Positions 4,606 through 52,017 of a DNA stretch of 64,000 bases are shown here, one piece after another. Position 1 is the stretch's first letter, and every line of letters begins with the position of its first letter. This DNA comes from Kiloniella litopenaei (lineage in GTDB: Bacteria; Pseudomonadota; Alphaproteobacteria; Kiloniellales; Kiloniellaceae): NCBI RefSeq assembly GCF_000982415.1, contig NZ_LANI01000009.1, positions 69,501-133,500 of the forward strand, given 5' to 3'. The position numbers and the translations under genes are program-made. The notes below the pieces were generated by a model. It saw only the letters and a program-made list of their open reading frames with translations, searched no databases and was not told where the DNA came from.

Positions 4606-4646
4606 TGCCATGCTGCAATCATTAATTTGATTGCAAGCGACAGACT

Positions 4647-4674
4647 AAAGGGTACCAAATCGGTACCCTTTTTT
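4647..4674 (+). terminator. Rho-independent terminator of the cold-shock gene
   Basis: A 10-bp stem (AAAGGGTACC 4647-4656 with GGTACCCTTT 4662-4671), a 5-base loop and a T-run to 4674, 42 bp after the csp stop codon. Confidence 0.9.
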
Positions 4675-4804
4675 CGTGCCTGATTTCTGATTTTTGCTGA
4701 TTTAAAAACGCACTAGCTTAAACACACGATCCACTCAGCGCTCAAGCTCGTGATTAAAACATCACGGCAACAACATCTGATGCATCAACCATCAACGTCG
4801 CGAG

Positions 4805-6433
4805 CTACTCCCACACATTCGGTACTTTCATGTGAATAAGGGCGGGCTTGCCGCTTTCTTTTGCCTGCTCAAACGCCTCGGGGAACTGATCTGCATGATC
4901 AACAGTAACCCCAACACCACCATAGGCCCGCGCCAGAGCGGCAAAATCAGGGTTGTTTAAACGGGTTGAAATAACACGGTCTGGATATTCACGTTCCTGA
5001 TGCATACGAATTGTTCCAAAGCACCCGTTATCGACCACGATAATGATGACATTGGCCCCGTATTGTACGGCAGTTGCTATTTCCTGCCCGTTCATCATAA
5101 AGCAACCATCCCCGGCCAAAGTCACAACCACTCTGTCAGGCTCTGTAATCTTGGCACTGATCCCCGCGGGAACACCATAGCCCATCGCCCCTGAAGTCGG
5201 GGCCAGTTGACTTGGGTAGGACGAGAACTGATAGAACCGCTGCCCCCAGATGGTGTAGTTTCCCGCACCATTGGTAATGATCGCATCATCCGGTAAATTT
5301 TCCCTCAGATAGCGGCTGATCTTGTGCATGGGGAAATCTTTGATACCAGCTTCTTCCGCAATAAAGGCCTCATATTCAGCACGTGCTTGTGCAACCGTAC
5401 CTTTCCAAACAGGCGCATTAACGGGGTCAAGATCCAACGCCGCTTTGGTAAAGGCTGTCAAATCACTCAGGATAGCCAACTCTGCATTAAAAACGCGGTT
5501 AAGCTCTTCTGCACCGGGGAGAATGTGAACAAGCTTCTGTTTGGTATTGGGACTGTCCAGCAAACTGTATCCACTGGTTGTCATTTCCCCCAGACGTGGG
5601 CCAACAACAATCAGAAGGTCACTTTCCTTGACCCGGGCAGCCAGCTTTGGATTAAGCGCAATACCAACCTCGCCAATATATTGAGGGTGGTGATTATCGA
5701 AGGTATCTTGCCTGCGGAAAGCACAGGCGACAGGCAAGTGATTGCGTTCAGCAAAGGCCGTTATGTTCCGACTGGCGTCTTTTGACCACCCGCCACCGCC
5801 AATAAGCAACAAAGGTTTCTGCGCTTCACTCAGCAATGTTCTGAAATCAGCCATATCCTCGGGCCGAGGGGCGGAAGCGACCTTTTTATAGGATGGCGTA
5901 TCCACCACGCTTGCCATTTCGGTCAACATATCTTCGGGCAGCGCCAACACCACAGGCCCCGGTCGGCCGGACGTTGCCGTATGGAAAGCGCGATTAAGAT
6001 ATTCCGGGATACGGTCAGCAGTTTCAATCTGGGCAACCCATTTCGCCATCTCACCAAACATGCGGCGATAATCAATTTCCTGAAAGGCTTCCCTGTCTTC
6101 CTGATCCCGAGCCACCTGACCGATAAACAAAATCATCGGCGTGGAATCCTGAAACGCAGTATGAACACCGATAGAGGCATTGGTCGCCCCCGGCCCCCGC
6201 GTCACAAAACAGATCCCCGGTGTGCCTTTCAGCTTGCCATAGGCTTCCGCCATATAGGCCGCGCCACCTTCTTGCCGACAGGTCACGATATTGATGCTCT
6301 CTGTCAAATCATAAAGACCATCCAGAACAGCCAGATAGCTTTCACCCGGCACACAGAACACCGTATCGACACCGTGGGCCTGTAGGCCCTGAGCCAGAAT
6401 TTCCCCGCCTGAACGTTCCGTTACATTTGCCAT
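4805..6433 (-). CDS. Thiamine diphosphate-dependent enzyme (acetolactate synthase-like), glutarate operon
   Basis: 542 residues with the three-domain layout of ThDP enzymes: N-terminal pyrimidine-binding domain with the activating glutamate in CRQEGGAAYMAEAYGK, a central domain, and a C-terminal diphosphate-binding domain with GDGCFMMNG and VVDNGCFGTIRMHQE. The glutamate shows it is not glyoxylate carboligase, where this residue is replaced. No regulatory small subunit is present, so biosynthetic acetolactate synthase is unlikely. It is the last gene after gcdH and the CoA-transferase (60-bp gap). I infer a 2-oxoacid decarboxylase or lyase role feeding glutarate metabolism, possibly on 2-oxoadipate. 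ATG 6433 is supported by AGGAAAG. Confidence 0.8.
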   Translation of the reverse strand: MANVTERSGGEILAQGLQAHGVDTVFCVPGESYLAVLDGLYDLTESINIVTCRQEGGAAYMAEAYGKLKGTPGICFVTRGPGATNASIGVHTAFQDSTPMILFIGQVARDQEDREAFQEIDYRRMFGEMAKWVAQIETADRIPEYLNRAFHTATSGRPGPVVLALPEDMLTEMASVVDTPSYKKVASAPRPEDMADFRTLLSEAQKPLLLIGGGGWSKDASRNITAFAERNHLPVACAFRRQDTFDNHHPQYIGEVGIALNPKLAARVKESDLLIVVGPRLGEMTTSGYSLLDSPNTKQKLVHILPGAEELNRVFNAELAILSDLTAFTKAALDLDPVNAPVWKGTVAQARAEYEAFIAEEAGIKDFPMHKISRYLRENLPDDAIITNGAGNYTIWGQRFYQFSSYPSQLAPTSGAMGYGVPAGISAKITEPDRVVVTLAGDGCFMMNGQEIATAVQYGANVIIIVVDNGCFGTIRMHQEREYPDRVISTRLNNPDFAALARAYGGVGVTVDHADQFPEAFEQAKESGKPALIHMKVPNVWE

Positions 6434-40191: not shown

Positions 40192-40195
40192 ATCT

Positions 40196-40296
40196 AGTTG
40201 TCTAGCTTAACTTTTTCTCATCGTTTCTTCATCGTTCATGTAGAGAAATCTACACGTCTCTCTTCACGCCTTGAGCTAAAATTAAGTTAGACAACT
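40196..40296 (+). repeat. Dispersed palindromic element, copy A
   Basis: 101 bp. The outer arms AGTTGTCTAGCTTAA (40196-40210) and TTAAGTTAGACAACT (40282-40296) pair with one mismatch. The core has TTCATCGTTCATGTAGA, a TGTAGA-GAAA-TCTACA mini-hairpin (40239-40254) and CTCTTCACGCCTTGA. It lies between convergent SGNH and Lrp genes and matches copies B, C and D. Confidence 0.85.
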
Positions 40297-40374
40297 ATCC
40301 CAAACACCTTGGCTTACAAGACTAGAGAGTTCATTAAACTTCAGCAACGCGCCGCCAACTAAAATAGTCGAAGA

Positions 40375-40833
40375 CTATATTGGCAGCTCCAGACCGCGTT
40401 TAACGTTTTCCATCACGACGGTGGTGGTGAATTCCTGTATGGCCGGGTTATCGAAAAACACGCGCTTGGTAAAGCGGTCATAGCTGGTCATGTTTTCCGC
40501 GGTGACGATCAAGAGGAAATCAAAAGCCCCGGTCACGTTATAACACTGCTGGATTTCCGGCTCGGCAAGGAACTGTGCGGTCAGACGGTCCAGCATTTCT
40601 GCATGACAGCGTTCGATAACCACCTGCACGATCAGGGTCAGTTGATGGGTGGAAAGATCCGGGTTGATCACCGCAATTTCCCGCTCGATAGCCCCCATAT
40701 CGCGCAATCGTTTAATCCGGCGTTGACATGCGGTCGCGGACAGACCAACCTGTTCCGCAATGCTATCTGATTTAAGGCGGGAATTTTCCTGTAATAGTCG
40801 CAGGATAGCCTTGTCGAAATTATCTATCTTCAT
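40375..40833 (-). CDS. Lrp/AsnC-family transcriptional regulator
   Basis: 152 residues. The N-terminal HTH (DKAILRLLQENSRLKSDSIAEQVGLSATACQRRIKRLRDMGAI) and C-terminal RAM/AsnC ligand domain (CYNVTGAFDFLLIVTAENM) give the standard architecture. Lrp-type proteins sense amino acids. It is divergent from the DMT exporter at 41047 (213-bp gap), a pairing often seen for amino-acid efflux systems, so it probably controls that gene. Confidence 0.92.
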   Translation of the reverse strand: MKIDNFDKAILRLLQENSRLKSDSIAEQVGLSATACQRRIKRLRDMGAIEREIAVINPDLSTHQLTLIVQVVIERCHAEMLDRLTAQFLAEPEIQQCYNVTGAFDFLLIVTAENMTSYDRFTKRVFFDNPAIQEFTTTVVMENVKRGLELPI

Positions 40834-41046
40834 CTTGGTCTTTAAACTGATCTGTCTTGAAGTGGCCTGTAGGGTGACACTAACCTGTTGCCGTTTCGGG
40901 GTATAGGTTGAAAAAACGCGTCAAATTCTATTTGTTGCAGTTTTTTGATCCGAAAACCACTTATTTTGCCGCAAAAGGCCGCGAACAATCAGCTATGATT
41001 CAAATGGTGAGTTTCAGGTTTATTTTTTGAGTATCGGGTAAGAGTA

Positions 41047-41952
41047 ATGGATCAGGCTTTAAAAGCAGAGCAAAGCACAATGACAATGGGGATTATCTAC
41101 GGCCTGATGGCAGCTCTGTTGTGGGGGGCGTGGCCCGTAGTGTCCAGCCTCGGCCTGCAAAACCAGACCCTGACACCCTATGATATTACCGCGCTGCGCT
41201 TTGGCGTTGCGGGTATTATTCTTTTGCCCCTGATCCTCAAGCGTGGCTTCAAAGGCATTGGCCTGCCCGGCGGGCTTCTGTTTGCCTTCGGGGCGGGTGC
41301 GCCCTATTTGCTCTTCACCGTCACAGGGCTTAAATACGCCCCGGCCAGCCATATGGGGATCATTGCGCCAAGCTGTATGCTGACCCTGTCCACCATCGGC
41401 GGCTGGTTTATTCTGGGGGATCGCCCCGACAGAAACCGTCTGCTTGGTTTGGGCGTGATTATTCTGGGCGTTGCCCTGCTCGGCTGGTCCGGCCTTGCCA
41501 TGGCGGGGGATAACCAGTGGATTGGCCATCTGATGTTTGTCGCCGGGGGCGGTTGCTGGGCCACCTACACCGTTTCCTCCAAATACTTCAAGGCCGATCC
41601 CCTGCACGCCACAGCGCTGGTCTCTGTACTGTCCATGGTCATTTACCTGCCACTCTATTTTACCTTTGGCGACCCACAGATCTTTGTTGCCCCCATGGAA
41701 GAAACCCTGTTTCAGGCGATCTTTCAGGGCATAGGCTCTGCCATTCTCGCCCTGTTGTTCTATACCAAGGCCGTTGCCTTGCTGGGCGCGGCCAAGGGCG
41801 CGGTCTTTGCCGCACTGGTGCCCGGCATCGCCGTTATCCTTGCCCTGCCCGTTCTGGGCGAAGAGCCAACGACCATCGAAATCGTCGGCGTCAGCATTGT
41901 CACCATCGGCATGGTTGGTGCCCTGGGCCTTATCAAGGCCCGCAAAAGATGA
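41047..41952 (+). CDS. DMT-superfamily (EamA) transporter
   Basis: 301 residues with ten predicted transmembrane helices arranged as two EamA repeats (about 14-150 and 160-298). EamA proteins export amino acids and other small metabolites. The divergent Lrp regulator suggests an amino acid or related compound as substrate. The last 28 bases including the stop codon are duplicated directly downstream. The opposite strand also has a long open frame here, but it is a shadow of this GC-rich coding sequence. Confidence 0.9.
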   Translation: MDQALKAEQSTMTMGIIYGLMAALLWGAWPVVSSLGLQNQTLTPYDITALRFGVAGIILLPLILKRGFKGIGLPGGLLFAFGAGAPYLLFTVTGLKYAPASHMGIIAPSCMLTLSTIGGWFILGDRPDRNRLLGLGVIILGVALLGWSGLAMAGDNQWIGHLMFVAGGGCWATYTVSSKYFKADPLHATALVSVLSMVIYLPLYFTFGDPQIFVAPMEETLFQAIFQGIGSAILALLFYTKAVALLGAAKGAVFAALVPGIAVILALPVLGEEPTTIEIVGVSIVTIGMVGALGLIKARKR

Positions 41953-41987
41953 GTACCTGATCAAGGCCCGAAGAAGATAGGTACCTT
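41932..41987 (+). repeat. Tandem duplication of the 3' end of the DMT transporter gene
   Basis: Two 28-bp copies (41932-41959 and 41960-41987) differ at six positions. The first codes IKARKR plus stop; the second, in its own frame, reads IKARRR plus stop. The second copy is non-coding after the first stop. Confidence 0.85.
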
Positions 41988-42001
41988 ATCACAAAATACC
42001 C

Positions 42002-42105
42002 CTGATCGTTTTAATTTTCGGCCATTCAAGGCGTGAAGAGCGAAATGTAGAAACCCTACATGAGCGATGAAACAACGCCGAAGAGTCGCGAATTAAAACG
42101 ATCAG
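42002..42105 (-). repeat. Dispersed palindromic element, copy B
   Basis: 104 bp, in inverted orientation relative to copy A. Outer arms CTGATCGTTTTAATT (42002-42016) and AATTAAAACGATCAG (42091-42105) are perfect complements. The core contains the complement of TTTCATCGCTCATGTAGG and a CTACAT/ATGTAG hairpin. It lies between the DMT gene and the hydantoinase gene. Confidence 0.85.
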
Positions 42106-42226
42106 AAGCTTTGATCTATTTGCGTCAACAGCACTCGTCGCTTTTAGGGAAGCAATATTCATAGTAAATTGCTAGGGGATTTAGGTATAAGTTCTTTTAT
42201 CACTGGCAGTTACGGATTATTCGGGA

Positions 42227-44257
42227 ATGTTGTTAGGTATTGATACGGGTGGCACCTATACGGATGCGGTTCTTTTCACAGAAGAAGACGGTGTGCTGCG
42301 GACCGCCAAATCCCTGACGACCAAACACGACCTGTCCATCGGTATCTGTGATGCGGTCAACCGGATTATGGATCGCGAGGGCGACCAGATCCGCATGGTG
42401 TCCCTGTCCACCACCCTTGCCACCAACGCCATTGTCGAAGCCCACGACAGCCCGGTCTGTCTGATTATGATCGGCTATGACAAGGGATCGCTGGAGCGAT
42501 CCAACCTCGGCACCGCCATTGGCAAGAACCCCTATGTCTTTATTGACGGCGGGCATACGCCCTTGGGCGACGAGCAATCCCCGCTGGATCTCGACGCGGT
42601 GCAACAGGCCATCGACGAACACGCCCCCCATGTGTCTGCCTTTGCCGTTGCGGGCTATTTCTCTGTGCGCAATGCATCCCACGAAGAAGCTGTTCGCAAC
42701 CTGATACTGGAAAAGACAGACCGCCCGGTGACCTGCGCCCACGAACTGTCATCGGGGCTGGATGCGCCGCGCCGCGCCCTCACCGCCTTTTTAAATGCCC
42801 AGTTGATCCCGCAATTACACCAGCTGATCCATTCCGTCGATATCATGTTACAGGAAAAGGGCATCAAGGCCCCCGTGATGGTGGTCAAGGGCGACGGGTC
42901 GCTGATCTCTGCGCAAACCGCGCTGGAACGCCCGGTTGAAACCATTCTCTCCGGCCCGGCGGCCTCTGTGGTCGGGGCCAAATATCTGTCCGGCGCCAGC
43001 GATGTCTTTGTGGTCGATATGGGCGGCACCACCACCGATATTGCGATCCTGATGGATGGCGAACCCAAGCTCAGCGAAGAAGGCGCCAACGTCGGCGGCT
43101 GGCGCACCATGGTCAAGGCCGTCGCGGTCAGCACCTATGGACTGGGCGGCGACAGTGAAGTCGCCCTGAAAGCTTCGCACAAGGGCACGGGTACGCCGCT
43201 CGGCATTGGCCCCCGCAGGGCTTACCCCATCAGCCTATTGACGCAACAACACCCAAGTGTCCTCGACGAGCTACAGCAACAGCTGCGCAAGGAGCGCATT
43301 GGCGAATACGACGGGCGCTTTGCCCTGAAGCTGCGCGAACTCAACACCGCGCTCACCAGCCTGTCGCGGCTGGAACTGGAAATATGGGAAAGCCTCGCCG
43401 ACGGCCCCGTTGCCCTCAACAGCTTGCTGGAACGCCCGGCCATGGCTGGCCCCTTGCAACGCCTGATTGATCGCGGCCTTGTGATTAATGCGGGCCTGAC
43501 CCCCAGTGACAGCAGCCATATCCTGAACAAACAGAACAACTGGACCCGCGACGGCGCCCTGCTCTGCGCGCAGCTGTTTTTAAGACAGGCCCAGCGCGAC
43601 AACCACCTGTTGGGCGTCACGCCCGAAGACCTTGCGGAAATGATTTATCAGCAAACCGTGGTTCAGGCGGGCAAAACCATTCTCGACACCGCTTTTATCG
43701 AAGAAAATATTCCGCAGATGACCAATAGCCAAAGTCTGGGATTGGCCCTGCTGGACAATGCGCTGCGAAACAAGGCAGATAGTCATAAAGGCGACACCAA
43801 AGGCACCTCTCCCCTTCTGGACTTTACCGTCAAACTGGGCAGAGGCATCGTGGCAACGGGCGCCCCGTCAGCCATCTATTACCCGGAAATCACCGCGCGC
43901 CTGAACACTGAACTGAACCTACCGGAAAACGCCGATGTGTCAAACGCGGTCGGTGCCGTGTGCGGCGGCGTTGTCCAGAAATACACCGTCCTGATCTCCT
44001 CCCCCGAAAAGGGCCGCTTCCGCACCCACATGGGCACCGAGCAAAAGAACTTTACCGTTGCGCAAGACGCCATCGACTACGCCAAATCCCACGCCGAAGA
44101 AAAAGCCTATCAAATGGCAGCGGAAAGCGGTGCCACCGATATCATCGTCGAGGTTGACCAGTTCGATAAAATCATCACCGACGCCGGCGGCGACCAACTC
44201 TTTATCGAAAGTTCCATTATTGCGACGGCTAAGGGGCGACCTGTGTTGATGGGGTGA
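42227..44257 (+). CDS. Hydantoinase/oxoprolinase family protein (HyuA-like)
   Basis: 676 residues. The N-terminal ATPase-like domain begins MLLGIDTGGTYTDAVLF and holds STTLATNAIVE; the second domain contains VDMGGTTTDIAILMDG, the actin-fold phosphate loops. Residues ~385-450 (LSRLELEIWESLADGPVALNSLLERPAM...LIDRGLVINAG) look like a winged-helix segment inserted before the C-terminal domain, seen in this ~680-aa subfamily. ATP-dependent ring opening of hydantoins or oxoproline is typical of the family, but no HyuB subunit is adjacent, so the reaction is unknown. A short AGG-poor leader precedes ATG 42227. Confidence 0.85.
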   Translation: MLLGIDTGGTYTDAVLFTEEDGVLRTAKSLTTKHDLSIGICDAVNRIMDREGDQIRMVSLSTTLATNAIVEAHDSPVCLIMIGYDKGSLERSNLGTAIGKNPYVFIDGGHTPLGDEQSPLDLDAVQQAIDEHAPHVSAFAVAGYFSVRNASHEEAVRNLILEKTDRPVTCAHELSSGLDAPRRALTAFLNAQLIPQLHQLIHSVDIMLQEKGIKAPVMVVKGDGSLISAQTALERPVETILSGPAASVVGAKYLSGASDVFVVDMGGTTTDIAILMDGEPKLSEEGANVGGWRTMVKAVAVSTYGLGGDSEVALKASHKGTGTPLGIGPRRAYPISLLTQQHPSVLDELQQQLRKERIGEYDGRFALKLRELNTALTSLSRLELEIWESLADGPVALNSLLERPAMAGPLQRLIDRGLVINAGLTPSDSSHILNKQNNWTRDGALLCAQLFLRQAQRDNHLLGVTPEDLAEMIYQQTVVQAGKTILDTAFIEENIPQMTNSQSLGLALLDNALRNKADSHKGDTKGTSPLLDFTVKLGRGIVATGAPSAIYYPEITARLNTELNLPENADVSNAVGAVCGGVVQKYTVLISSPEKGRFRTHMGTEQKNFTVAQDAIDYAKSHAEEKAYQMAAESGATDIIVEVDQFDKIITDAGGDQLFIESSIIATAKGRPVLMG

Positions 44258-44348
44258 TGAATGCACTATGGTTGTATTTATTTTATTGCGAACGTCCTAT
44301 TCATAAGCAAAACTTGCAGCATCAAAAGAATTTTTAGAAGCTGCAACC

Positions 44349-44648
44349 ATGAATGAAAAATCAGATCTTCTTAGTGTCGTCGTAGATCCTGATGGCGATC
44401 AGGTTTATGTGCATGCTGATTTGAATGGCTTGAAAAAGCTAAGAAACACAATTGATTCAATGATATCCAAACTTGAGTCGGATCAATGTGATCACGATCA
44501 TCTTCGCGCAGAAGAATGGGCTGGCGATGAACTCACCACTTCTATGCTAGAGGCTGAAAAGAAGAATGGTTGCACCCAAGTACATCATGTAAAGCTTTAT
44601 GCATGGAATACAGAGTGGAAAAAGAAGCACGGCCTTTTCAAAGGATGA
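44349..44648 (+). CDS. Immunity protein 32 (Imm32) family
   Basis: 99 residues. DGDQVYVHADLNGLKKLRNTID, HDHLRAEEWAGDELTTSML and HHVKLYAWNTEW match the Imm32 family, which appears in polymorphic toxin systems. No toxin gene is visible, so it is an orphan immunity-type gene, or has another role in an accessory islet. It is AT-rich compared with the hydantoinase gene just upstream, and the DUF2971 gene follows after 29 bp. Confidence 0.75.
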   Translation: MNEKSDLLSVVVDPDGDQVYVHADLNGLKKLRNTIDSMISKLESDQCDHDHLRAEEWAGDELTTSMLEAEKKNGCTQVHHVKLYAWNTEWKKKHGLFKG

Positions 44649-44677
44649 ATAGATATAAAAAGTAAAAAGGTGCAAAG

Positions 44678-45307
44678 ATGAGCGGAATCAGTATTAGACG
44701 ATATACGAATTTAGCAGCAACAATTCACATACTTAAAAATAGAAATATTACTCTTTTAGACCCTAATTATTGGGATGACAAAAATGATAGTTATTTCATG
44801 GATCATTATAAAAAACAAAAAAATCTACAAACTTTACTTGCATTGTGTTTTGCAGAGGATGCTGAAACCTACCACCATTGGAAAGTATTTTCATCGGGGA
44901 GTGACGGTGTTTGCATTGAGTTTAACAAAGAGGAATTAATTCATTCAATTAAGAAAACTCCAGGAATTTCATATGGTGTTGTTGATTACATACCAATTAA
45001 GAAAGCTAAAACTGTCCCCCTCACATTAGACAAACTCCCATTTACTAAACGTTATCCTTATAAGCCAGAGAACGAATTCAGGATTGTTTATCAAAATAAA
45101 GGGCAATATGAGGCAGTCAAAGACATACCTATGCCTCTAAGTACTATTAAGAGGATTACCCTAAGTCCTTGGCTACCCAAAGCGTTAAGAAATTCAACGG
45201 TTGACACACTAAAAACTATCAAGGGATGTAGCAAATTGAAGATCTACCGTACAACATTATTAGAAAACGATCAGTGGAAAAAATTAGTTGACCATGTCAG
45301 TAAATAG
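44678..45307 (+). CDS. DUF2971 domain-containing protein
   Basis: 209 residues. The pattern RRYTNLAATIHILKN, NYWDDKNDSYFMDHYK, CFAEDAETYHHWKVFSSGSDGVCIEFN and RYPYKPENEFRIVYQ matches DUF2971, a family common in accessory islands and often near phage-defence genes. The segment may be a small enzymatic or nucleotide-binding fold, but no activity is known. The Shine-Dalgarno AAAGGTG is good. Together with Imm32 it forms a likely two-gene unit. Confidence 0.75.
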   Translation: MSGISIRRYTNLAATIHILKNRNITLLDPNYWDDKNDSYFMDHYKKQKNLQTLLALCFAEDAETYHHWKVFSSGSDGVCIEFNKEELIHSIKKTPGISYGVVDYIPIKKAKTVPLTLDKLPFTKRYPYKPENEFRIVYQNKGQYEAVKDIPMPLSTIKRITLSPWLPKALRNSTVDTLKTIKGCSKLKIYRTTLLENDQWKKLVDHVSK

Positions 45308-45489
45308 CAAACCGTTATAAATAAGTTTGGTTAACTTGTTGCACCTTTCCCTAAATAAACAATCAACGTTCCTCCCTTTATAACTACCTTCCAATTCATT
45401 GGCATTAATACACTTCTTTCAAGAATACTAGAGTGTTCCAAGGTAGAAATAATAATTTATCAAATAGTATTACTGCGAAAGATTGTCGA

Positions 45490-46758
45490 ATGAATATTTG
45501 CACGCGCTTAAAATGCGATACATGTAGTACTCTAATTGATTGTAGAATAGGCATGTCAAACAGAGATATCCAACCATTTCAGTTCGCCTGTCCATCATGT
45601 GGCGAAGTAATAATGTTCACACTTGGAACTCAAGAAAGTAACTTAAGTGGTGCGATTGAAATTAAAAATTTCAAAGGGTTATTTGACGGTCAAAATCCTT
45701 TTGTAGATCTTCATCTAGATTTTCCAGCTTCATTCGAAACCTATAAAATGGGTGGTACAACTTACATGAAGGCCGTAGAAGAGTTGGGGGCAGAAGCTAT
45801 TGGTAACTTAAGCTATCGACTGTCTATGTTAAATCTACTGTATTCGAAGCAAAGGGACCTTCAAAGGCTTATCACCCAGTATAAGCGAGGTAATATAAAA
45901 AGCTTTAAAAAAATCTGTAATGACTTTGAAATTCCAGAAATTACGTTAAAATCAGAAAAAAAAGAAGATGTGCTTGCAGCACTCTATTCTGTTACTTCGA
46001 TAATGTCTTCGCCAATAACTATTCATGCTCAAAATGAAGAATTATCAAAAAAAATACCACTAATTCTTCAAGATCTCTACGAAAAGTATAATAAAAACAC
46101 TACTAATTTTGTTAATAAAATCATTGAGAATCAGTTTTTAGAAAATTTACATCACGATTGCTTAGATCTGTATCCCAATATAGTTTCACTTGATCTGCCT
46201 ATACGTCCAACTCTTTACTATGATTATATAAACTCCAGTGAACATAGTAAGGTTCCAGCCAGAGTATCAACTTCCGATTTTGGAACTTGCAGTAACTTTT
46301 ATAAAGATCTTGCCGAGGTTTTTTCACGGCAGCTCGTACTCCTTGCAGGATTAAACAACCTACATAATCGAGGAGATCATGATCTGTTTGACGATAAGGT
46401 TAGATTGAATAAGAAGGGGAAAATAATAAAAGAGTTCTCTTCTTTAAATAGTTATGCAAATGTCGATTTGGGAAAGAAACTAGGTGCTATAGATAACCCT
46501 TTCTACCAAATAGATAAACAAGCAATAGATAACAACCTAAGAAACAGTATTGCGCACTATAAATATGATTATGATGAGGCTTCACAACAAATAGCTTACT
46601 ATCCGAAGAAAGAGGGAATGCAAAGAAATATAGAGCACTCACTTTATTTCATACAATTCATGCGTAAAACGCTTCTCTTGTTTCGTGAAGTTCATAATTT
46701 GAATCACGTGATTAAATCATTGCTTTATTTTAAAATCTTTATTTTGAGAAAAGAATAA
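45490..46758 (+). CDS. Uncharacterised protein with N-terminal zinc ribbon and C-terminal HEPN-like motif
   Basis: 422 residues from ATG 45490; a GTG 57 bases upstream is possible. Four cysteines (C9, C12, C34, C37) form a zinc ribbon at the N-terminus. The middle is helical and has no motif I recognise. Near the C-terminus, LRNSIAHYKYDYD contains R351-x4-H356, which fits the R-x4-6-H motif of HEPN RNases, followed by a segment IAYYPKKEG. HEPN domains act as toxins or defence RNases. The Abi_C gene follows after 66 bp. The family is not one I can name, and the HEPN reading is an inference from a short motif. Confidence 0.55.
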   Translation: MNICTRLKCDTCSTLIDCRIGMSNRDIQPFQFACPSCGEVIMFTLGTQESNLSGAIEIKNFKGLFDGQNPFVDLHLDFPASFETYKMGGTTYMKAVEELGAEAIGNLSYRLSMLNLLYSKQRDLQRLITQYKRGNIKSFKKICNDFEIPEITLKSEKKEDVLAALYSVTSIMSSPITIHAQNEELSKKIPLILQDLYEKYNKNTTNFVNKIIENQFLENLHHDCLDLYPNIVSLDLPIRPTLYYDYINSSEHSKVPARVSTSDFGTCSNFYKDLAEVFSRQLVLLAGLNNLHNRGDHDLFDDKVRLNKKGKIIKEFSSLNSYANVDLGKKLGAIDNPFYQIDKQAIDNNLRNSIAHYKYDYDEASQQIAYYPKKEGMQRNIEHSLYFIQFMRKTLLLFREVHNLNHVIKSLLYFKIFILRKE

Positions 46759-46824
46759 AATACTTCATTACTTATAACTCTTTAACTGTTTAAAAAATCA
46801 GGATTTTTTTAAGGGGCTGCATAA

Positions 46825-47595
46825 ATGAGCGGATATATTGAAATTCCGGCCGATATTATCGAACGGGTTGAAATGATGGAGGCTATCCTGACTTCTCGTG
46901 CAACTGGCGGAGGAGAAGAAGAAGATAATAGAATTTACAAGCTGTTACGACAAAACCTCATGGCAGATCAAGTAATCCGCGACCTACTACCGAAATTTGT
47001 AAGGACTTATCGTAATCTTGATGCATTTTGGCCTTTTATAAAAAACGAAGCGTCTTCTTATGCTGAACGTAGAGAGATTATAAACAAAGCCTTCACTCCC
47101 CTCGTTGATCACTTGGAGGGATGTAACAGTGCACCCCCTGATAAAGAATCGTCTAACATTTTAGAAGTCTTTGATGCGAATGGAGTATATGCTGCTTGGA
47201 CAAAAGCACTTGATCGCCGCAACTCTGATCCAGAAGGAGCTATTACTATGGCAAGAACCCTTCTCGAAACGGTGACAAAACGTATTCTTGATGAACTACA
47301 GAAAACTTACTCTGACAAAGACGATCTACCCAAACTTTATAAGTTAGCGGCAAAAGCATTAAATCTTGCACCAAATCAACACACAGAAGAGCCGATAAAG
47401 GCAATCCTTGGGGGAGCGATGCACTTGGTTAATGGCATAGGAACATTACGAAATCGGTTATCAGACTCGCATGGACGAGGAGGAAAATTGCCCGTGAGAC
47501 CATCGCCACGTCATGCAAGTCTCGCAGTTAATACTGCCGGTGCTATCGCAACTTTTCTCGTAGAAACATTCTTGGAACAACAAAAGAATATATAA
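46825..47595 (+). CDS. Abortive infection family protein (Abi_C, HEPN superfamily)
   Basis: 256 residues. The C-terminal part is diagnostic: ARTLLETVTKRILDEL, then LRNRLSDSHGRGGKLPVRPSPRHASLAVNTAGAIATFLVETF, the Abi_C signature. It includes R209-x6-H216, the HEPN RNase motif. Such proteins are believed to cleave RNA in response to phage infection. The N-terminal ~120 residues are helical and probably regulate or sense. A clear Shine-Dalgarno (AAGGGG) precedes ATG 46825. It is the last gene of the AT-rich islet. Confidence 0.8.
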   Translation: MSGYIEIPADIIERVEMMEAILTSRATGGGEEEDNRIYKLLRQNLMADQVIRDLLPKFVRTYRNLDAFWPFIKNEASSYAERREIINKAFTPLVDHLEGCNSAPPDKESSNILEVFDANGVYAAWTKALDRRNSDPEGAITMARTLLETVTKRILDELQKTYSDKDDLPKLYKLAAKALNLAPNQHTEEPIKAILGGAMHLVNGIGTLRNRLSDSHGRGGKLPVRPSPRHASLAVNTAGAIATFLVETFLEQQKNI

Positions 47596-47683
47596 TTTCT
47601 ATTACCAAATTCACAAACAAGTACGATAATCGGCATCCGCGCAACGGATTTCGATGTCGATCAATAAGCACTCTACTCCCCCA

Positions 47684-48223
47684 TCACCCCAAAATCACAC
47701 CACTTGTTACACTACTAATCATCGCACCCGTATTAATCGGGTGATAGATGGGCATGGGCGGGCGGGTGGCGTTTTCGACGCTTCGGTGGATCCATTGTCG
47801 GTCTTCCATGCGGCGCAGGGACTGGGACAGGGCTCGATCTGTGATGGTGGATAGACTGCGCTTGATCTCACTGAACTGACTTGGCTTTTGCAGGCTTGCC
47901 AGCACGGGCAAGGTCCAGGATCTGCGTATCAGGTCCTGTTCTTTTTCTTCCGAAACGTCCAGAATTTTATGCGCCATTTCGGCTGCGACCTGGCCCAGCG
48001 GGGTCAGGCGGAATTCCGGGCGCAGGGGGTGGCCGTGGCCGGGGTTGCGTTCCAACAGGCCGATATCAATCAGATGCGCCATACTTTGCGCGAAGGCGGT
48101 TCGGCTTGCGCCCGTTGCGCTCAGCAAAGGGGCTTGCCGCCCCGGGACGCCAGCGTGGAGCTTGGCAAGGATGGGCAACGCCCATGCCCGTGATGTGATG
48201 TTGACAAATGTATTTATGTCCAT
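47684..48223 (-). CDS. HxlR-like winged-helix regulator with two HTH repeats
   Basis: 179 residues that read as two similar winged-helix halves, each starting with (R/S)WxLPxLAxL: SRAWALPILAKL (about 11-22) and RSWTLPVLASL (about 99-110). The second half contains FSEIKRSLSTITDRALSQSLRRMEDRQWIHR, typical of HxlR. A single-chain dimer-like regulator is expected. It is divergent from the VOC gene at 48276, with a palindrome in the 52-bp gap, so it probably regulates that gene and itself. Confidence 0.83.
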   Translation of the reverse strand: MDINTFVNITSRAWALPILAKLHAGVPGRQAPLLSATGASRTAFAQSMAHLIDIGLLERNPGHGHPLRPEFRLTPLGQVAAEMAHKILDVSEEKEQDLIRRSWTLPVLASLQKPSQFSEIKRSLSTITDRALSQSLRRMEDRQWIHRSVENATRPPMPIYHPINTGAMISSVTSGVILG

Positions 48224-48227
48224 AAAG

Positions 48228-48240
48228 TATAGTTACTATA
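48228..48240. promoter_or_regulatory. Small palindrome between the HxlR and VOC genes
   Basis: TATAGTTACTATA, arms of six around a central T, directly upstream of the HxlR start codon; a candidate operator. Confidence 0.5.
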
Positions 48241-48275
48241 TTTTAAAAATTAAATAAAGCAGTAAAGGATAAATT

Positions 48276-48653
48276 ATGTCGCTCGTAAAATTGAATGAAA
48301 CCATCACAATTGCCCTGTCGGTCACAGATCGCCACAAAAGTGCGGACTGGTACCAGAAAATACTGGGGTTTGAAGTTATGTACCACGCCGATGAAGCAGG
48401 TTGGTCCGAGATTACAACCAAAACGGAAAACGTGACAATCGGCCTGGGCGAACACACAGAACCCGCCCCCGGCAACTGTGTGCCCGTGTTCGGCATTGCA
48501 GATCTGGATAGCGCACGGGCCAAGATGGAAGATGCCGGGGTGCGGTTTGATGGCCCCACAGACGTGGCCGAAGGCATGGTGAAAACCGCAACCTTTTATG
48601 ACCCCGACAACAATGCCCTGATGCTTGCGGAAGATTTAACAGGCGGGGCGTAA
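48276..48653 (+). CDS. VOC-family protein
   Basis: 125 residues, one vicinal-oxygen-chelate domain. ITIALSVTDRHKSADWYQKILGFEVMYHAD begins the first module, and VKTATFYDPDNNALMLAEDL ends the second. The Shine-Dalgarno AAAGGA is well placed. Control by the divergent HxlR protein suggests a response to a reactive or aromatic compound, but the substrate is unknown. It is not closely related to the VOC protein at 24769. Confidence 0.87.
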   Translation: MSLVKLNETITIALSVTDRHKSADWYQKILGFEVMYHADEAGWSEITTKTENVTIGLGEHTEPAPGNCVPVFGIADLDSARAKMEDAGVRFDGPTDVAEGMVKTATFYDPDNNALMLAEDLTGGA

Positions 48654-48962
48654 TACGGCCTAGCCCTTTTCAGGCTTGATCTTTTTTGGGCCTAATATTT
48701 TCGAGACCTAATCTTTTTTGGAGTTGGGGCCTCTTTCGGTATGTGCCCCTGTTCCAGTGTTTGGCCATTTTGGGGGGACTGATCACGCAACAATCATGCA
48801 GAAAATAACCGACCCCGAATAGTCACCTGAATAATCGGGTGAATAATCGGGGTCGGTTATATGTCTGTATATGTCTGCCCAAAAAAACAATTGGACAAAC
48901 CAACCGGACAAAAGATTGGGATAAAATCTCTAGAAAGAATATCGGGGAGAACCTCCCCCCCT
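48654..48962. other. Intergenic region with tandem units and a long hairpin
   Basis: No supported gene. It holds three 16-17-bp units (48675-48690, 48691-48706, 48707-48723; consensus CCTAATCTTTTTTGGA) and a long inverted repeat with perfect 14-bp arms, ATAACCGACCCCGA (48805-48818) and TCGGGGTCGGTTAT (48847-48860), enclosing two copies of GAATAATCGGG. The hairpin has no T-tail and lies downstream of both flanking, convergent genes, so it may end transcription from either side. Confidence 0.7.
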
Positions 48963-49379
48963 CTAGCGTAATCGCCCGAGAACGATTTTTTCCAGCGTGT
49001 TAAAGTCTCTGTTGCCGATATTCACAAAGCGGGCGCCGAGCTTGCCGTTATCAATGTCGGCGCGACGAATTTCAATATCGATCTTAAAGGGATCGGCCTT
49101 TTTCAGCAGAATTTCAAGGTTGACGATATCCCCGACTTTCAGACCCAGTGCGTCGATATCCAGCTTTTCGCCGTCTTCGACAATCACGTCCATATCGCCG
49201 TACTGTTCCAGATCGTCTTCCTCGCCGGAAATACCGACGCCGCCGGGACTGATATCATTAATCGTCACCCGCACGCCCTTGAGGATAGCCTCTATCCCCC
49301 GCAGCTTGGCGGCCAGATTTACCGCGCGGCGATGGTCGCGTCTTCTTTCCTTGTTATAAACCGCTACTACCTTCGCCAT
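48963..49379 (-). CDS. PilZ-domain protein
   Basis: 138 residues. The c-di-GMP-binding arginines lie in ERRRDHRRAV (R13/R14 and R17/R18) and the D/N-x-S-x-x-G motif is D42-I-S-P-G-G47. The protein is one PilZ domain and no effector domain is attached. It should bind cyclic di-GMP and regulate motility, surface attachment or exopolysaccharide by protein contact. It lies alone, transcribed away from the FemAB-like gene, with repeat copy C upstream of its start. Confidence 0.88.
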   Translation of the reverse strand: MAKVVAVYNKERRRDHRRAVNLAAKLRGIEAILKGVRVTINDISPGGVGISGEEDDLEQYGDMDVIVEDGEKLDIDALGLKVGDIVNLEILLKKADPFKIDIEIRRADIDNGKLGARFVNIGNRDFNTLEKIVLGRLR

Positions 49380-49400
49380 AAAACCCTAGAACCCCTTTTT

Positions 49401-49504
49401 ATAGTTATGCAAGCTAACTCTTCCTTAGCGTTGTTTCATCGTTCGCATAGGTCGCCTACACGTCACTCTTCACGCCTAAAGCAAAAGTCAGCTTTCATAA
49501 CTAT
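49401..49504 (+). repeat. Dispersed palindromic element, copy C
   Basis: 104 bp. Outer arms ATAGTTATG (49401-49409) and CATAACTAT (49496-49504) are perfect and continue imperfectly inward. The core 49428-49477 (with TTTCATCGTTCGCATAGG and ACTCTTCACGCC) is 48/50 identical to copy D in inverted orientation. It lies upstream of both the PilZ gene and the FemAB-like gene. Confidence 0.87.
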
Positions 49505-49638
49505 GGCTGTTAAACTTACATAAGAATAGCACGAATATATCGGGAAATCATTTACAAAGCCATAGATAAAGCATTATGGATAATAGATGATTCGCCACAA
49601 AACAATTGCCCTCGACAGTCACGCACAATTACTTGCCC

Positions 49639-50637
49639 ATGCCTGATAAAGCCCGGATAAACGCCCCTGAGACCTCTGGCACCCCTGGCACCCCGCAACT
49701 GGATATAAAATGGAACGACGTTTCCGTGCGCCAGTGGCGAGAGCTGGTGCGCAAGGCCGGGCAATCAAACCTGTTACAAAGCTGGCCCTATGCCCAAGCC
49801 GTCCTGATGACCGAACGGCTGGTCGGCAAGTTCGCCACCATTTACTGGCAGGGACGTATTGTCGGCATCTGTCAGGTGTTGGAACAAAAGCTGTTGGGCG
49901 TGTTTCACAAGGTACGGCTCTATCGCGGGCCGCTGTGGCTGGAACCCGACATCCCGCAAGAGGTGCACGAGTTTTTCTGGGCGGAAATACAAAAACGCTA
50001 TCCCGCGCGTCCCTGGCGCTTTCGATACTTCCTGCCGGAAATGCCGGATACGGAAGCCAACCGCGCCTTGCTGGCGAAGTTTGGTCTGAACCGTATTCAG
50101 ACCGACGGCTATTCGTCAATCTGGCTCGACCTGACACAGCCCGAAGAAACCTTGCGCGCGAACCTGAAACAGAACTGGCGCAATACCCTGAACCAGTCAG
50201 AGAAAAAAGGGCTGGCACTGGAACTGGACACAGAGGGCAAGCACCTGAACTGGCTGCTCAAACTCAGCGAGATGGACAAAATCCTCAAGGAATTCAAAGG
50301 GCCAAGCCCCGCACTGGTCGCGCACCTGAAACGCTTTACAAAGGACCGGGGCGATTTCCTCTTGATGCGCGCGTTGCTTGATGGCGAAGCGGTGGGCGCC
50401 ATTCTGCTGTTCCTGCACGAAGGCAGTGCAACCTATCTGGTGGGTTGGAACTCACAGGAAGGGCGCGACGCCCGCGCGCACAATTACCTCTTGTGGCGTG
50501 GCCTGCTGGAGCTGAAAGAGCGCGATATCAACTGGCTCGACCTCGGCGGGATCAACCCCGATGATGCCAAGGGCGTGACCTTCTTCAAAAAAGGCCTCGG
50601 CGGCACCCCCTTCACCCTCATCGGCAGCTACAACTAG
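49639..50637 (+). CDS. FemAB-like / GNAT-fold peptidoglycan-bridge family protein
   Basis: 332 residues. The opening (WRELVRKAGQSNLLQSWPYAQAV) and the C-terminal GNAT-like domain with LRANLKQNWRNTLNQSEKKGL, YLVGWNSQEGRDARAHNYLLWRGLLELKER and WLDLGGINPDD...VTFFKKGLGG match the FemAB/BioF2-like acetyltransferase family. Gram-negative members are thought to transfer amino-acyl or acyl groups, often in exopolysaccharide or PEP-CTERM loci; the acceptor here is unknown. ATG 49639 starts the protein; a TTG 33 bases upstream is a poorer option. It is bracketed by inverted copies C and D of the palindromic element. Confidence 0.8.
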   Translation: MPDKARINAPETSGTPGTPQLDIKWNDVSVRQWRELVRKAGQSNLLQSWPYAQAVLMTERLVGKFATIYWQGRIVGICQVLEQKLLGVFHKVRLYRGPLWLEPDIPQEVHEFFWAEIQKRYPARPWRFRYFLPEMPDTEANRALLAKFGLNRIQTDGYSSIWLDLTQPEETLRANLKQNWRNTLNQSEKKGLALELDTEGKHLNWLLKLSEMDKILKEFKGPSPALVAHLKRFTKDRGDFLLMRALLDGEAVGAILLFLHEGSATYLVGWNSQEGRDARAHNYLLWRGLLELKERDINWLDLGGINPDDAKGVTFFKKGLGGTPFTLIGSYN

Positions 50638-50651
50638 GTGGCTATAGCCAC
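50638..50651. repeat. Perfect 14-bp palindrome after the FemAB-like stop codon
   Basis: GTGGCTATAGCCAC begins directly after the TAG stop. It may form part of a 3' hairpin. Confidence 0.6.
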
Positions 50652-50679
50652 TTCTAACTATAACTGCTTTACTCTTTTA

Positions 50680-50795
50680 ATAGCTGTTTTACTTAATCCT
50701 AATTCAAGGCGTAAAGAGAGACGTGTAGGCGACCTATGCGAACGATGAAACAACGCATGAGATTTTAGGGAAGAAGGGGTGAGTAAATCAGCTAT
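50680..50795 (-). repeat. Dispersed palindromic element, copy D
   Basis: 116 bp, inverted relative to copy C. Outer arms 50680-50695 and 50780-50795 pair at 14 of 16 positions; core 50707-50756. The right arm overlaps the 3' end and the TGA stop of the YeeE-like gene. Confidence 0.85.
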
Positions 50796-52017
50796 AGGCC
50801 TTGCGAACTCTGACGCCGATCATATTCCCGGCCAATGCTGCGAAGAGCCAGACCCAGCCGTGCACACTGCCCGATGCGACGCCGCTGAAAAAGGCACCGA
50901 TGTTACAGCCATAGGCTAAACGCGCGCCATAGCCCAACATCAGGCCACCGATCAGGGCCGTGACGATGCCTTTGACCGTGACGTTCTGTGACTTGCCAAA
51001 CTTTCCGGCGAGGACCGCCGCGCTCATGGCACCGGCGACAATCCCGATGTTGGTGGCAGAGGCATCGCTTTTGAACAGCGACTGATCCAGCGCCGCCATG
51101 CGCCCGGACCAATAGGGAATGTCGGACAGATCCGCGCCAAGGAAAGACACCAGCTTGCCGCCCCACAGCGTAATGCCCGACGTAATCCCCCACGGATGCC
51201 CCAACAGCGCCAGCATGGCAAAGTTGAGCAAGGCCAGCGCCACAGCCCCGAGCACCAGCGGCCATGGTCCTTGGGTGATGCGATGGAACAAGGGAGCCTT
51301 AGGCGTGCTCTCTCCTTCTTCTAACAGAAAGTTTCTGTTTTCGACCTTACAGACAAAGAGATAGAGCAAGGCAAAGACAATCAGATGCAGGATCAAAGCC
51401 TGTTCCCATCCCCAGAGGTTCACCATGGAAACGGCTTTCCACTTTGGCAATGCGTGCCAGAACGGCAGGTGCACCGTTGCAATGACCGACCCCAGCATAA
51501 AGGTGATCAGGGTCACCACCATGCGAATACTGCCACCGCCAACGGTAAAGAGCGTGCCACTGGCACAGCCCCCCGCGATTTGCATGCCGATGCCAAAGAC
51601 AAAAGCCCCGACCACAACACCCGTTCCGGCTGGCGCCACAAAGCCCGACGCCCTGTGGCCCAGTATCGTACCGCTATCAAGCACCGGGAAGAACAGCGTG
51701 ACCACAACCGCCAGCATGACAATCTGTGCCTTGAGCCCTGCGCCCCAGCCCTCGGTCAGAAAACGTCTCCAGGCCGAGGTAAAACCAAATGCCGCGTGAT
51801 AGAGGCTAATGCCAAGGGCAATACCCAGCCCCGTCGCGATTGCCGATCGTTGCCCCATATAAAAATACAGCACAACAAGCGCCAGCAACGACATTGCCAG
51901 TGGCAAATACTTATGTGGGGAAAAAACATGGCTTGTTTGCGCTTGCATTAAATGGGTCCGCTTGATGGGGTTCGGGTAAGCATATTGGTTTACGGATTTT
52001 GAGCTTATCATACCCAT
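50788..52017 (-). CDS. YeeE/YedE-family (TsuA-like) membrane transporter
   Basis: 409 residues, about ten transmembrane helices. The two conserved cysteine motifs of the family are present: IAGGCASGTLFTVGGG (about residue 150) and ARLAYGCNIGAFFSGVASGS (near residue 375). In TsuA these cysteines pass thiosulfate across the inner membrane. No TusA-like partner (TsuB) is adjacent. Start ATG 52017 has AAAGAG upstream; ATG 51948 (MQAQTSH), nearer the first helix, is an alternative. Its last codons and stop lie in repeat copy D. Confidence 0.86.
   Translation of the reverse strand: MGMISSKSVNQYAYPNPIKRTHLMQAQTSHVFSPHKYLPLAMSLLALVVLYFYMGQRSAIATGLGIALGISLYHAAFGFTSAWRRFLTEGWGAGLKAQIVMLAVVVTLFFPVLDSGTILGHRASGFVAPAGTGVVVGAFVFGIGMQIAGGCASGTLFTVGGGSIRMVVTLITFMLGSVIATVHLPFWHALPKWKAVSMVNLWGWEQALILHLIVFALLYLFVCKVENRNFLLEEGESTPKAPLFHRITQGPWPLVLGAVALALLNFAMLALLGHPWGITSGITLWGGKLVSFLGADLSDIPYWSGRMAALDQSLFKSDASATNIGIVAGAMSAAVLAGKFGKSQNVTVKGIVTALIGGLMLGYGARLAYGCNIGAFFSGVASGSVHGWVWLFAALAGNMIGVRVRKAYS

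Follow-up and report, generated by a model that had tools for sequence, protein, structure and literature searches.

The 64,000-nucleotide stretch of Kiloniella litopenaei DNA analysed here (contig NZ_LANI01000009.1, positions 69,501 to 133,500; hereafter the window) contains four copies of a short palindromic element that we consider likely to belong to a Kiloniella family of dispersed, protein-less palindromes, nested within a phylum-wide superfamily that includes the ERIC repeats and probably also the Correia elements of Neisseria. With similar confidence, we regard the element as an ERIC-type non-autonomous palindrome that is maintained as a fold, probably an RNA fold. Judged by its sequence blocks and predicted structure, ERIC is a distant relative of the Kiloniella palindromes; no description of this kinship, of a conserved core shared among these families or of an ERIC relative in alphaproteobacteria was found in the open-licence literature searched. 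The origin and role of ERIC are unsettled, and kinship with the Kiloniella palindromes could help to explain that role.

A preliminary description of this DNA had placed four copies here in two orientations, and the limits set by a covariance model (Table 1; lengths of 106–118 bp) bear out both the positions and the orientations. Read 5′ to 3′ on the strand designated R (the strand reading AAGGCGTGAAGAG...GATGAAACAACG, opposite to the orientation used previously), the element comprises a 27-nt arm, AAGGC, GAGNGA, a mini-hairpin (GUGUAG-n5-CUACAY), GARCGA, AACG(C) and a complementary 27-nt arm. The cores of copies C and D, which are inverted relative to each other, match at 48/50 positions (96%), as originally noted. 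The arms had been described as differing from copy to copy while remaining complementary within each; the pairing is confirmed, but the arms are not unrelated, as those of the Kiloniella copies (turned to R) align nearly gap-free as diverged forms of a single arm of ~27 nt with the consensus nATAGTTGTTTAAnTTAACTTTTnCTC. Likewise, the statement that all four copies are intergenic holds for copies A–C but not for copy D, the last 9 nt of which overlap the end of the sulphur-transport reading frame (50788-52017). All four copies fold end to end more stably than their own dinucleotide shuffles on either strand (z = −3.4 to −7.3 on R and −2.9 to −6.9 on the opposite strand, where 1/200 shuffles of copy D folded equally well), and R is the more stable strand in 4/4 copies.

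The two core hexamers pair as G.A, A.G, G-C, C-G, G.A and A.G, and the core is thereby predicted to form two tandem G.A steps flanking a short helix, below the mini-hairpin. In an alignment of 56 copies, the pairs by column are G38.A68, A39.G67, G40-C66, C41-G65, G42.A64 and A43.G63, followed by the hairpin, with A44 unpaired. Pair 41-65 of the inner helix co-varies (C-G 22, A.A 14, U-A 6, U-G 5), as does pair 37-69 (A-U 31, G-C 12), and G.A is retained at 42-64 in 47/56 copies. Tandem sheared G.A pairs are a standard RNA motif that is also possible in single-stranded DNA; on the strand opposite R, the same steps would read as T.C mismatches.

The covariation in the arms indicates that it is their pairing that is maintained. 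The 19 Kiloniella copies give 722 pair cells, of which 84.6% hold standard pairs, compared with 34–43% when the partner is slid by 1–3 columns, and two-sided changes occur in 23/38 pairs against a mean of 14.9 after letter shuffling. For 77 copies from across the Pseudomonadota, 84.4% of cells pair (33–42% slid), the covariation score is 0.709 (0.107–0.160 slid) and 39/40 pairs show two-sided changes (shuffled mean 34.3), although the alignment was fitted to the model and these counts therefore lean toward structure. Distant alphaproteobacterial copies behave in the same way, with 543/647 arm cells paired. The Kiloniella copies were also compared site by site, in 17 groups matched by their flanks (sites A–D, A0 and B2 by alignment, the remaining groups by eye): between site-matched copies there are 41 double compensatory differences, against 4–9 with slid partners. 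On these alignments, arm sequence is free and arm pairing is maintained.

The pairs that deviate from Watson–Crick geometry identify the folding strand. Counts of G-U against A-C in the arms on R are 54:23, 90:42, 41:14 and 42:17. Per copy, G-U exceeds A-C in 21 Kiloniella copies, with the reverse in 5 and ties in 5 (19 vs 8 when two G-U-rich columns are omitted); the corresponding numbers are 15, 2 and 8 for distant alphaproteobacteria and 15, 3 and 7 for a wider set, which shares two copies (L180 and L182) with the distant one. As neutral evolution, or evolution as double-stranded DNA, has no strand preference, the G-U excess on R points to R as the strand that folds.

The element is not confined to the window. 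When the K. litopenaei genome was searched by BLAST with copy C as query, six places, copy C itself among them, matched at E 1e-3 or better, and a weak match (E 1.36) corresponds to a seventh, diverged copy. A covariance model built from 19 Kiloniella copies (R1) detects ten copies in this genome at E up to 0.01 and matches 7/9 Kiloniella genomes (3 to 20 matches per genome, at least one copy being counted on both strands); 0/16 other relatives were matched in the same search, and R1 had no match up to E 1 in a negative control, the syntenic stretches of three genomes that lack copies at these places (L120–L122). The copies are clustered, with four of about ten in the K. litopenaei genome falling within 10.6 kb (40193-50796) and five each in the syntenic 10–11 kb of K. 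majae and EL199 (L124, L125). Occupancy differs between species: site A is empty in K. spongiae, site B in K. majae and site D in EL199, and two further sites are occupied in K. majae and EL199 and unoccupied in K. litopenaei and K. spongiae. Site C is occupied in all four of these genomes, which indicates that some copies are old. The preliminary description had left the choice between a structured RNA and a palindromic mobile element, and had proposed looking for further copies, covarying arms and differing site occupancy; all three were found, and together they lend support to both halves of its proposal.

Other arrangements were observed at these and related sites. At site B of EL199 (L125, ~4640-4800), a complete copy with other arms stands between a left half of copy B and the right flank of B, an arrangement that, read from the sequence, is a nested insertion or a product of recombination between copies. 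Where copy B is absent in K. majae (L124, near 4820-4873) there is a terminator-like hairpin with a T run, and the matching T-rich place in the metagenome-assembled genome is, by eye, the start of the element at site B. Core-less palindromes of 57–58 bp, seemingly two arms alone, occur at G007:C1:185043-185100 (L116) and G005:C110:310-366 (L056) and recall the short forms of Correia elements. Single arms or remnants lie in L127 at 2156 (apparently where a reading frame ends, by eye), L128 at 1651 and L130 at 1874; only such remnants were met when an autonomous element with the same ends was looked for in the places examined. At the point on the 3′ side where copy D has its extra segment, some other Kiloniella copies (L030, L061 and L125 site A) have a CCCATGAGATATTGGG-like optional insert, singly or, in a few, as two tandem copies.

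Beyond the genus, R1, trained on Kiloniella alone and run under stricter filters, matches 12/289 alphaproteobacteria including K. litopenaei, i.e. 11/288 others. These 11 genomes are of 1.2–2.4 Mb with 1–4 matches each, and the arms of the distant copies have for the most part no sequence relationship to the Kiloniella arms, although a TATAG start is common to some. A second model (R2), built from the Kiloniella and distant alphaproteobacterial copies, matches 53/398 Pseudomonadota at E up to 0.001, again with arms that are largely unrelated and yet pair; the 53 include K. litopenaei and at least two training genomes (G166, G234), only nine candidates were scored per genome, and the E-values are rough, at face value predicting 0.4 genomes by chance among the 398. 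A third model (R3), containing more members of the family, gives 8 to 48 matches each at E up to 1e-4 in 12/12 re-examined genomes, which were picked because of prior matches and several of which contributed copies to R3. Of all parts of the element, the arms are conserved least between genomes, yet their pairing is kept; as they change freely, with only the pairing and a short core persisting, such families escape sequence search. Matches of a pattern scan in Nitrospira and Gordonibacter (L073, L079) were set aside as chance, having no model match up to E 1.

Some of the genomes with the Kiloniella-type element also contain inverted pairs, as in BIME-type systems. The pairs abut, + then −, with their 3′ ends facing and 2–6 nt apart in those listed (G515, G452, G348, G361, G598, G674; L203, L204, L215), and in L204 and L215 the two copies are joined by a CCCUUCGGG link. 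In G515 the inverted pair occurs at least 5 times, and the pair itself thus seems to have multiplied.

ERIC repeats are widely used for strain typing. Also named IRU or RU-1, they resemble the Kiloniella element in being palindromic, intergenic, protein-less and multi-copy with an end-to-end fold, and in presenting AAGGC, GAGNGA, an apical hairpin, GAGCGA and ACGC in the same order on the same strand; the ends read TATACTC at one end in locus L199 and GAGTATA at the other in locus L200. The differences lie in length (127 bp vs 106–118 bp), in arms of unrelated sequence and in the apical hairpin, which is short in Kiloniella and longer in ERIC (CCCCAG..CUGGGG plus CUUAC-AUAA-GUAAG). L199 and L200 are two Escherichia coli ERIC loci that we located with a 44-nt ERIC core. 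R2, trained without ERIC, matches both over exactly 127 bp with 25.9 and 25.1 bits, compared with 12.6 and 10.5 bits on the other strand of ERIC, and ranks ERIC (the same copy as L199) first in 100 kb of E. coli at 25.1 bits, ahead of a runner-up at 14.4. In a simpler test, four blocks were taken from 75 aligned copies that excluded ERIC and Correia; ERIC, outside the training set, scores 33.4 and copy B, inside it, scores 34.4, with 0/3000 shuffles as high for either, and the strict four-block pattern has a single match in 100 kb of E. coli, at ERIC. In excerpts of PMC2229807 and PMC2759123, ERIC is described from enterobacteria and Vibrio, and the former dates its first description to 1990–91.

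The preliminary description had also stated that no named family fits. This stands insofar as no Rfam family scores at or above its cut-off on any copy scanned (covering 37-54 kb of the window, 20/25 distant loci, 37 wider loci, the two ERIC loci and one CREE contig), the microRNA matches on two palindromes being weak and far below cut-off, but it no longer stands with respect to ERIC, the distant relative, and Correia, the probable one. One sub-threshold match bears on ERIC itself: V_AS5 (RF02818, Vibrio antisense RNA AS5) matches both E. coli ERIC loci on R with 46.9 and 44.5 bits (E 2.4e-7 and 1.1e-6; cut-off 96 bits), nearly end to end (L199 559-682, L200 559-678), and was reported on none of the copies of the Kiloniella-type family in the same scans. 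On this match, V_AS5 is probably a transcribed Vibrio relative of ERIC, and a Vibrio ERIC may already be present in Rfam under a different name; the match is also a hint of R-strand transcription of an ERIC relative.

Correia elements (CREE or NEMIS) are described in excerpts of PMC2649163 as having a common form of 104–108 bp with 26-bp inverted repeats starting TATAG[CT]GGATTAA, TA targets and a hairpin that RNase III binds or cleaves, and part of PMC5039591 terms them unique to Neisseria. R2 found such an element blind in a 1.8-Mb genome (L192, 53.3 bits) and also matches a short form (L152, 34.6 bits). The likeness to the Kiloniella element extends to the ends, the arms, AAGGCG...AACGC, the central mini-hairpin and the length, whereas the two G.A hexamers are missing; by eye, the Kiloniella arm consensus agrees with the Correia inverted repeat at 10/12 resolved positions of the outer 13, and the rest does not agree. 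The four-block test is not significant for Correia, with 679/3000 shuffles as high for L152 and 1232/3000 for a 155-bp form. Because of the match in ends, arms, AAGGCG, AACGC and hairpin, set against the non-significant four-block test, we grade Correia elements as probable relatives of the Kiloniella palindromes, and ERIC as a relative.

Excerpts of PMC2229807 table ERIC, Correia, RUP, RPE, CIR and YPAL together as bacterial miniature inverted-repeat transposable elements (MITEs) with stem-loop transcripts. Three of these were compared by description in that source: RUP of pneumococcus (107 bp, TA ends), CIR of Caulobacter and Brucella (alphaproteobacterial repeats of ~110 bp with two arms and a linker) and RPE, repeats in Rickettsia. 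A known family may be among what is matched in the small alphaproteobacterial genomes. The REP/BIME systems are likewise intergenic palindromes, but REP units are shorter (20–40 bp in the available part of PMC3733652), and of the features that mark REP/REPIN, a GTAG/CGTC tag and a RAYT transposase, GTAG is not kept in the hairpin of the element, which has GUUUGG and GUUUAG variants. RU-3 was rejected as the same element because its sequence, as printed in the available part of PMC2759123, lacks this core by eye.

We put at about even the chances of a broader proposition, that a single superfamily, whose defining feature is an RNA core of twin tandem G.A steps below a mini-hairpin and inside arms of free sequence, unites ERIC and the Kiloniella palindromes with a large set in alpha- and other Pseudomonadota, and possibly with Correia, and that selection keeps the fold and not the repeat sequence. 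If true, such "MITEs" would amount to structured RNAs that are mobile and that share a partner protein or nuclease throughout the phylum. The covariance model that links ERIC with Kiloniella and dozens of Pseudomonadota genomes makes the origin and role of ERIC testable at the level of bases, folding strand and compensatory arm changes.

In our preferred reading, copies would be spread in trans by a transposase, and the R strand would be transcribed with the adjoining gene and fold into a long hairpin whose G.A-rich core is fixed. This hairpin may alter the stability or translation of the transcript, by analogy with the ERICs of Yersinia, for which excerpts of PMC2229807 report that upstream transcripts are less stable when ERIC is co-transcribed, that orientation matters and that RNase E is implicated. 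The Kiloniella copies would then be structured mRNA segments acting in cis, with copy C, 20 nt before the predicted start of a PilZ gene, as the best test case.

An ordinary MITE, in which an IS630-like, TA-targeting transposase uses the arms as terminal inverted repeats, arm complementarity reflects only shared binding ends and the fold has no function, would account for the TATAG...CTATA-like ends found on many copies, as in Correia (although the outermost pair is U-A in just 4/19 Kiloniella copies), for the intergenic spread and site polymorphism and for the isolated arm remnants. We consider it unlikely, because ends recognized by a transposase should keep their sequence, whereas here the arms are the least conserved part across genomes while pairing is kept, because neither the one-strand excess of G-U over A-C nor the conserved core is expected and because no mobiliser was found in a DDE_3 search of the nine Kiloniella genomes. 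We give a similarly low chance to a DNA process, either hairpin-templated quasi-palindrome repair or arm gene conversion, or folding of single-stranded DNA in replication or transposition, as the source of arm complementarity in place of selection on RNA. That both arms change jointly even where they are largely unrelated between genomes fits such a process, and tandem G.A steps could form in single-stranded DNA as well, but repair would yield Watson–Crick pairs with no one-strand G-U excess and leaves the shared core unexplained; single-stranded DNA on R stays compatible with the excess.

Gene overlap, judged with a home-made gene caller, never exceeds 40 nt in 74/76 Kiloniella copies and 24/25 distant copies, and the orientations of adjoining genes are mixed. 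Flank distances (omitting 2/76 Kiloniella and 3/25 distant rows, and with orthologs counted separately) place a gene end no more than 20 nt from the 3′ side in 19/34 cases vs 5/43 for the 5′ side in Kiloniella, and in 10/14 vs 0/10 in the distant set. Gene starts lean likewise to the 3′ side in Kiloniella (16/40 vs 4/31, p 0.016), with no clear lean in the distant set (2/8 vs 1/12). The least probable of the alternatives, an independent family of small RNA genes with a promoter of its own ahead of the 5′ arm, draws on this abutment of gene ends at the 3′ end and on the V_AS5 match to ERIC on R, but in Kiloniella the gap on the 3′ side is overall no shorter (the shorter in 41/74 copies, p 0.42), while in the distant set it is (18/22), there is no promoter-like site near copies A–D and, by eye, neither a common upstream motif nor a U-tract at the 3′ end.

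Several observations weigh against maintenance of an ERIC-type RNA fold. Regarding the kinship, the covariance score of ERIC, taken by itself, is weak (E 0.041 within 100 kb), which we attribute to the penalty on its longer apical hairpin; R3, despite its additional family members, brings no clear gain on ERIC (26.3 and 24.4 bits), the comparison rests on two near-identical loci, and the resemblance to ERIC was known before the four blocks were chosen, although these were drawn from an alignment that excluded ERIC. Matches of R2 and R3 were selected for fit to the model, and the R1 scan of L120–L122 is the only negative control. Regarding the fold, single differences between site-matched copies break pairs 172 times and keep them 96 times, which indicates that many copies are decaying, the count of 172 being inflated by site groups that contain indels. 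Regarding mobility, DDE_3 (IS630-type) genes, the only Pfam family sought, are present in 2/9 Kiloniella genomes and absent from K. litopenaei itself, where a DDE_3 mobiliser was therefore rejected; no matching ends were seen around the three DDE_3 genes of the genus in the stretches fetched, and none of sites A–D, A0 and B2, the flanks of which are too diverged, yielded a clean empty counterpart with a TA duplication. Finally, regarding transcription, no promoter or intrinsic terminator is predicted inside copies A–D, which were consequently also rejected as intrinsic terminators, and copies L065, L080, L092, L140 and L142 are among those that by eye lie just 3′ of a terminator-like hairpin, by which read-through on R from the upstream gene would be cut.

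Table 1 Positions of the four palindromic elements and their parts in the window; the strand given is R.
Feature	Position	Strand	Length	Context or composition
Copy A, whole element	40193..40299	− (R strand = minus)	107 nt	between convergent GDSL-lipase and Lrp/AsnC genes
Copy A inner core	40232..40262	−		GAGAGA, hairpin, GAACGA; tandem G.A steps
Copy B, whole element	42001..42106	+	106 nt	between tandem EamA and hydantoinase A genes
Copy B 5′ arm	42001..42027	+		pairs with 42080-42106
Copy B inner core	42038..42067	+		GAGCGA 42038-42043, hairpin 42045-42061, GAGCGA 42062-42067
Copy B 3′ arm	42080..42106	+		pairs with 42001-42027
Copy C, whole element	49400..49505	−	106 nt	5′ region of PilZ-domain gene, ending 20 nt before predicted gene start
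Copy C inner core	49439..49468	−		GAGTGA, hairpin, GAACGA
Copy D, whole element	50679..50796	+	118 nt, with insert	between convergent FemAB/GNAT-like and sulphur-transport genes
Copy D inner core	50716..50745	+		GAGAGA, hairpin, GAACGA
Extra segment CATGAGATTTTAGGG in copy D	50756..50770	+

The window also contains a further strong palindrome at 48805-48860, between called reading frames, with 26-nt arms that are 88% complementary and a 4-nt loop; by eye, it differs from the Kiloniella element.

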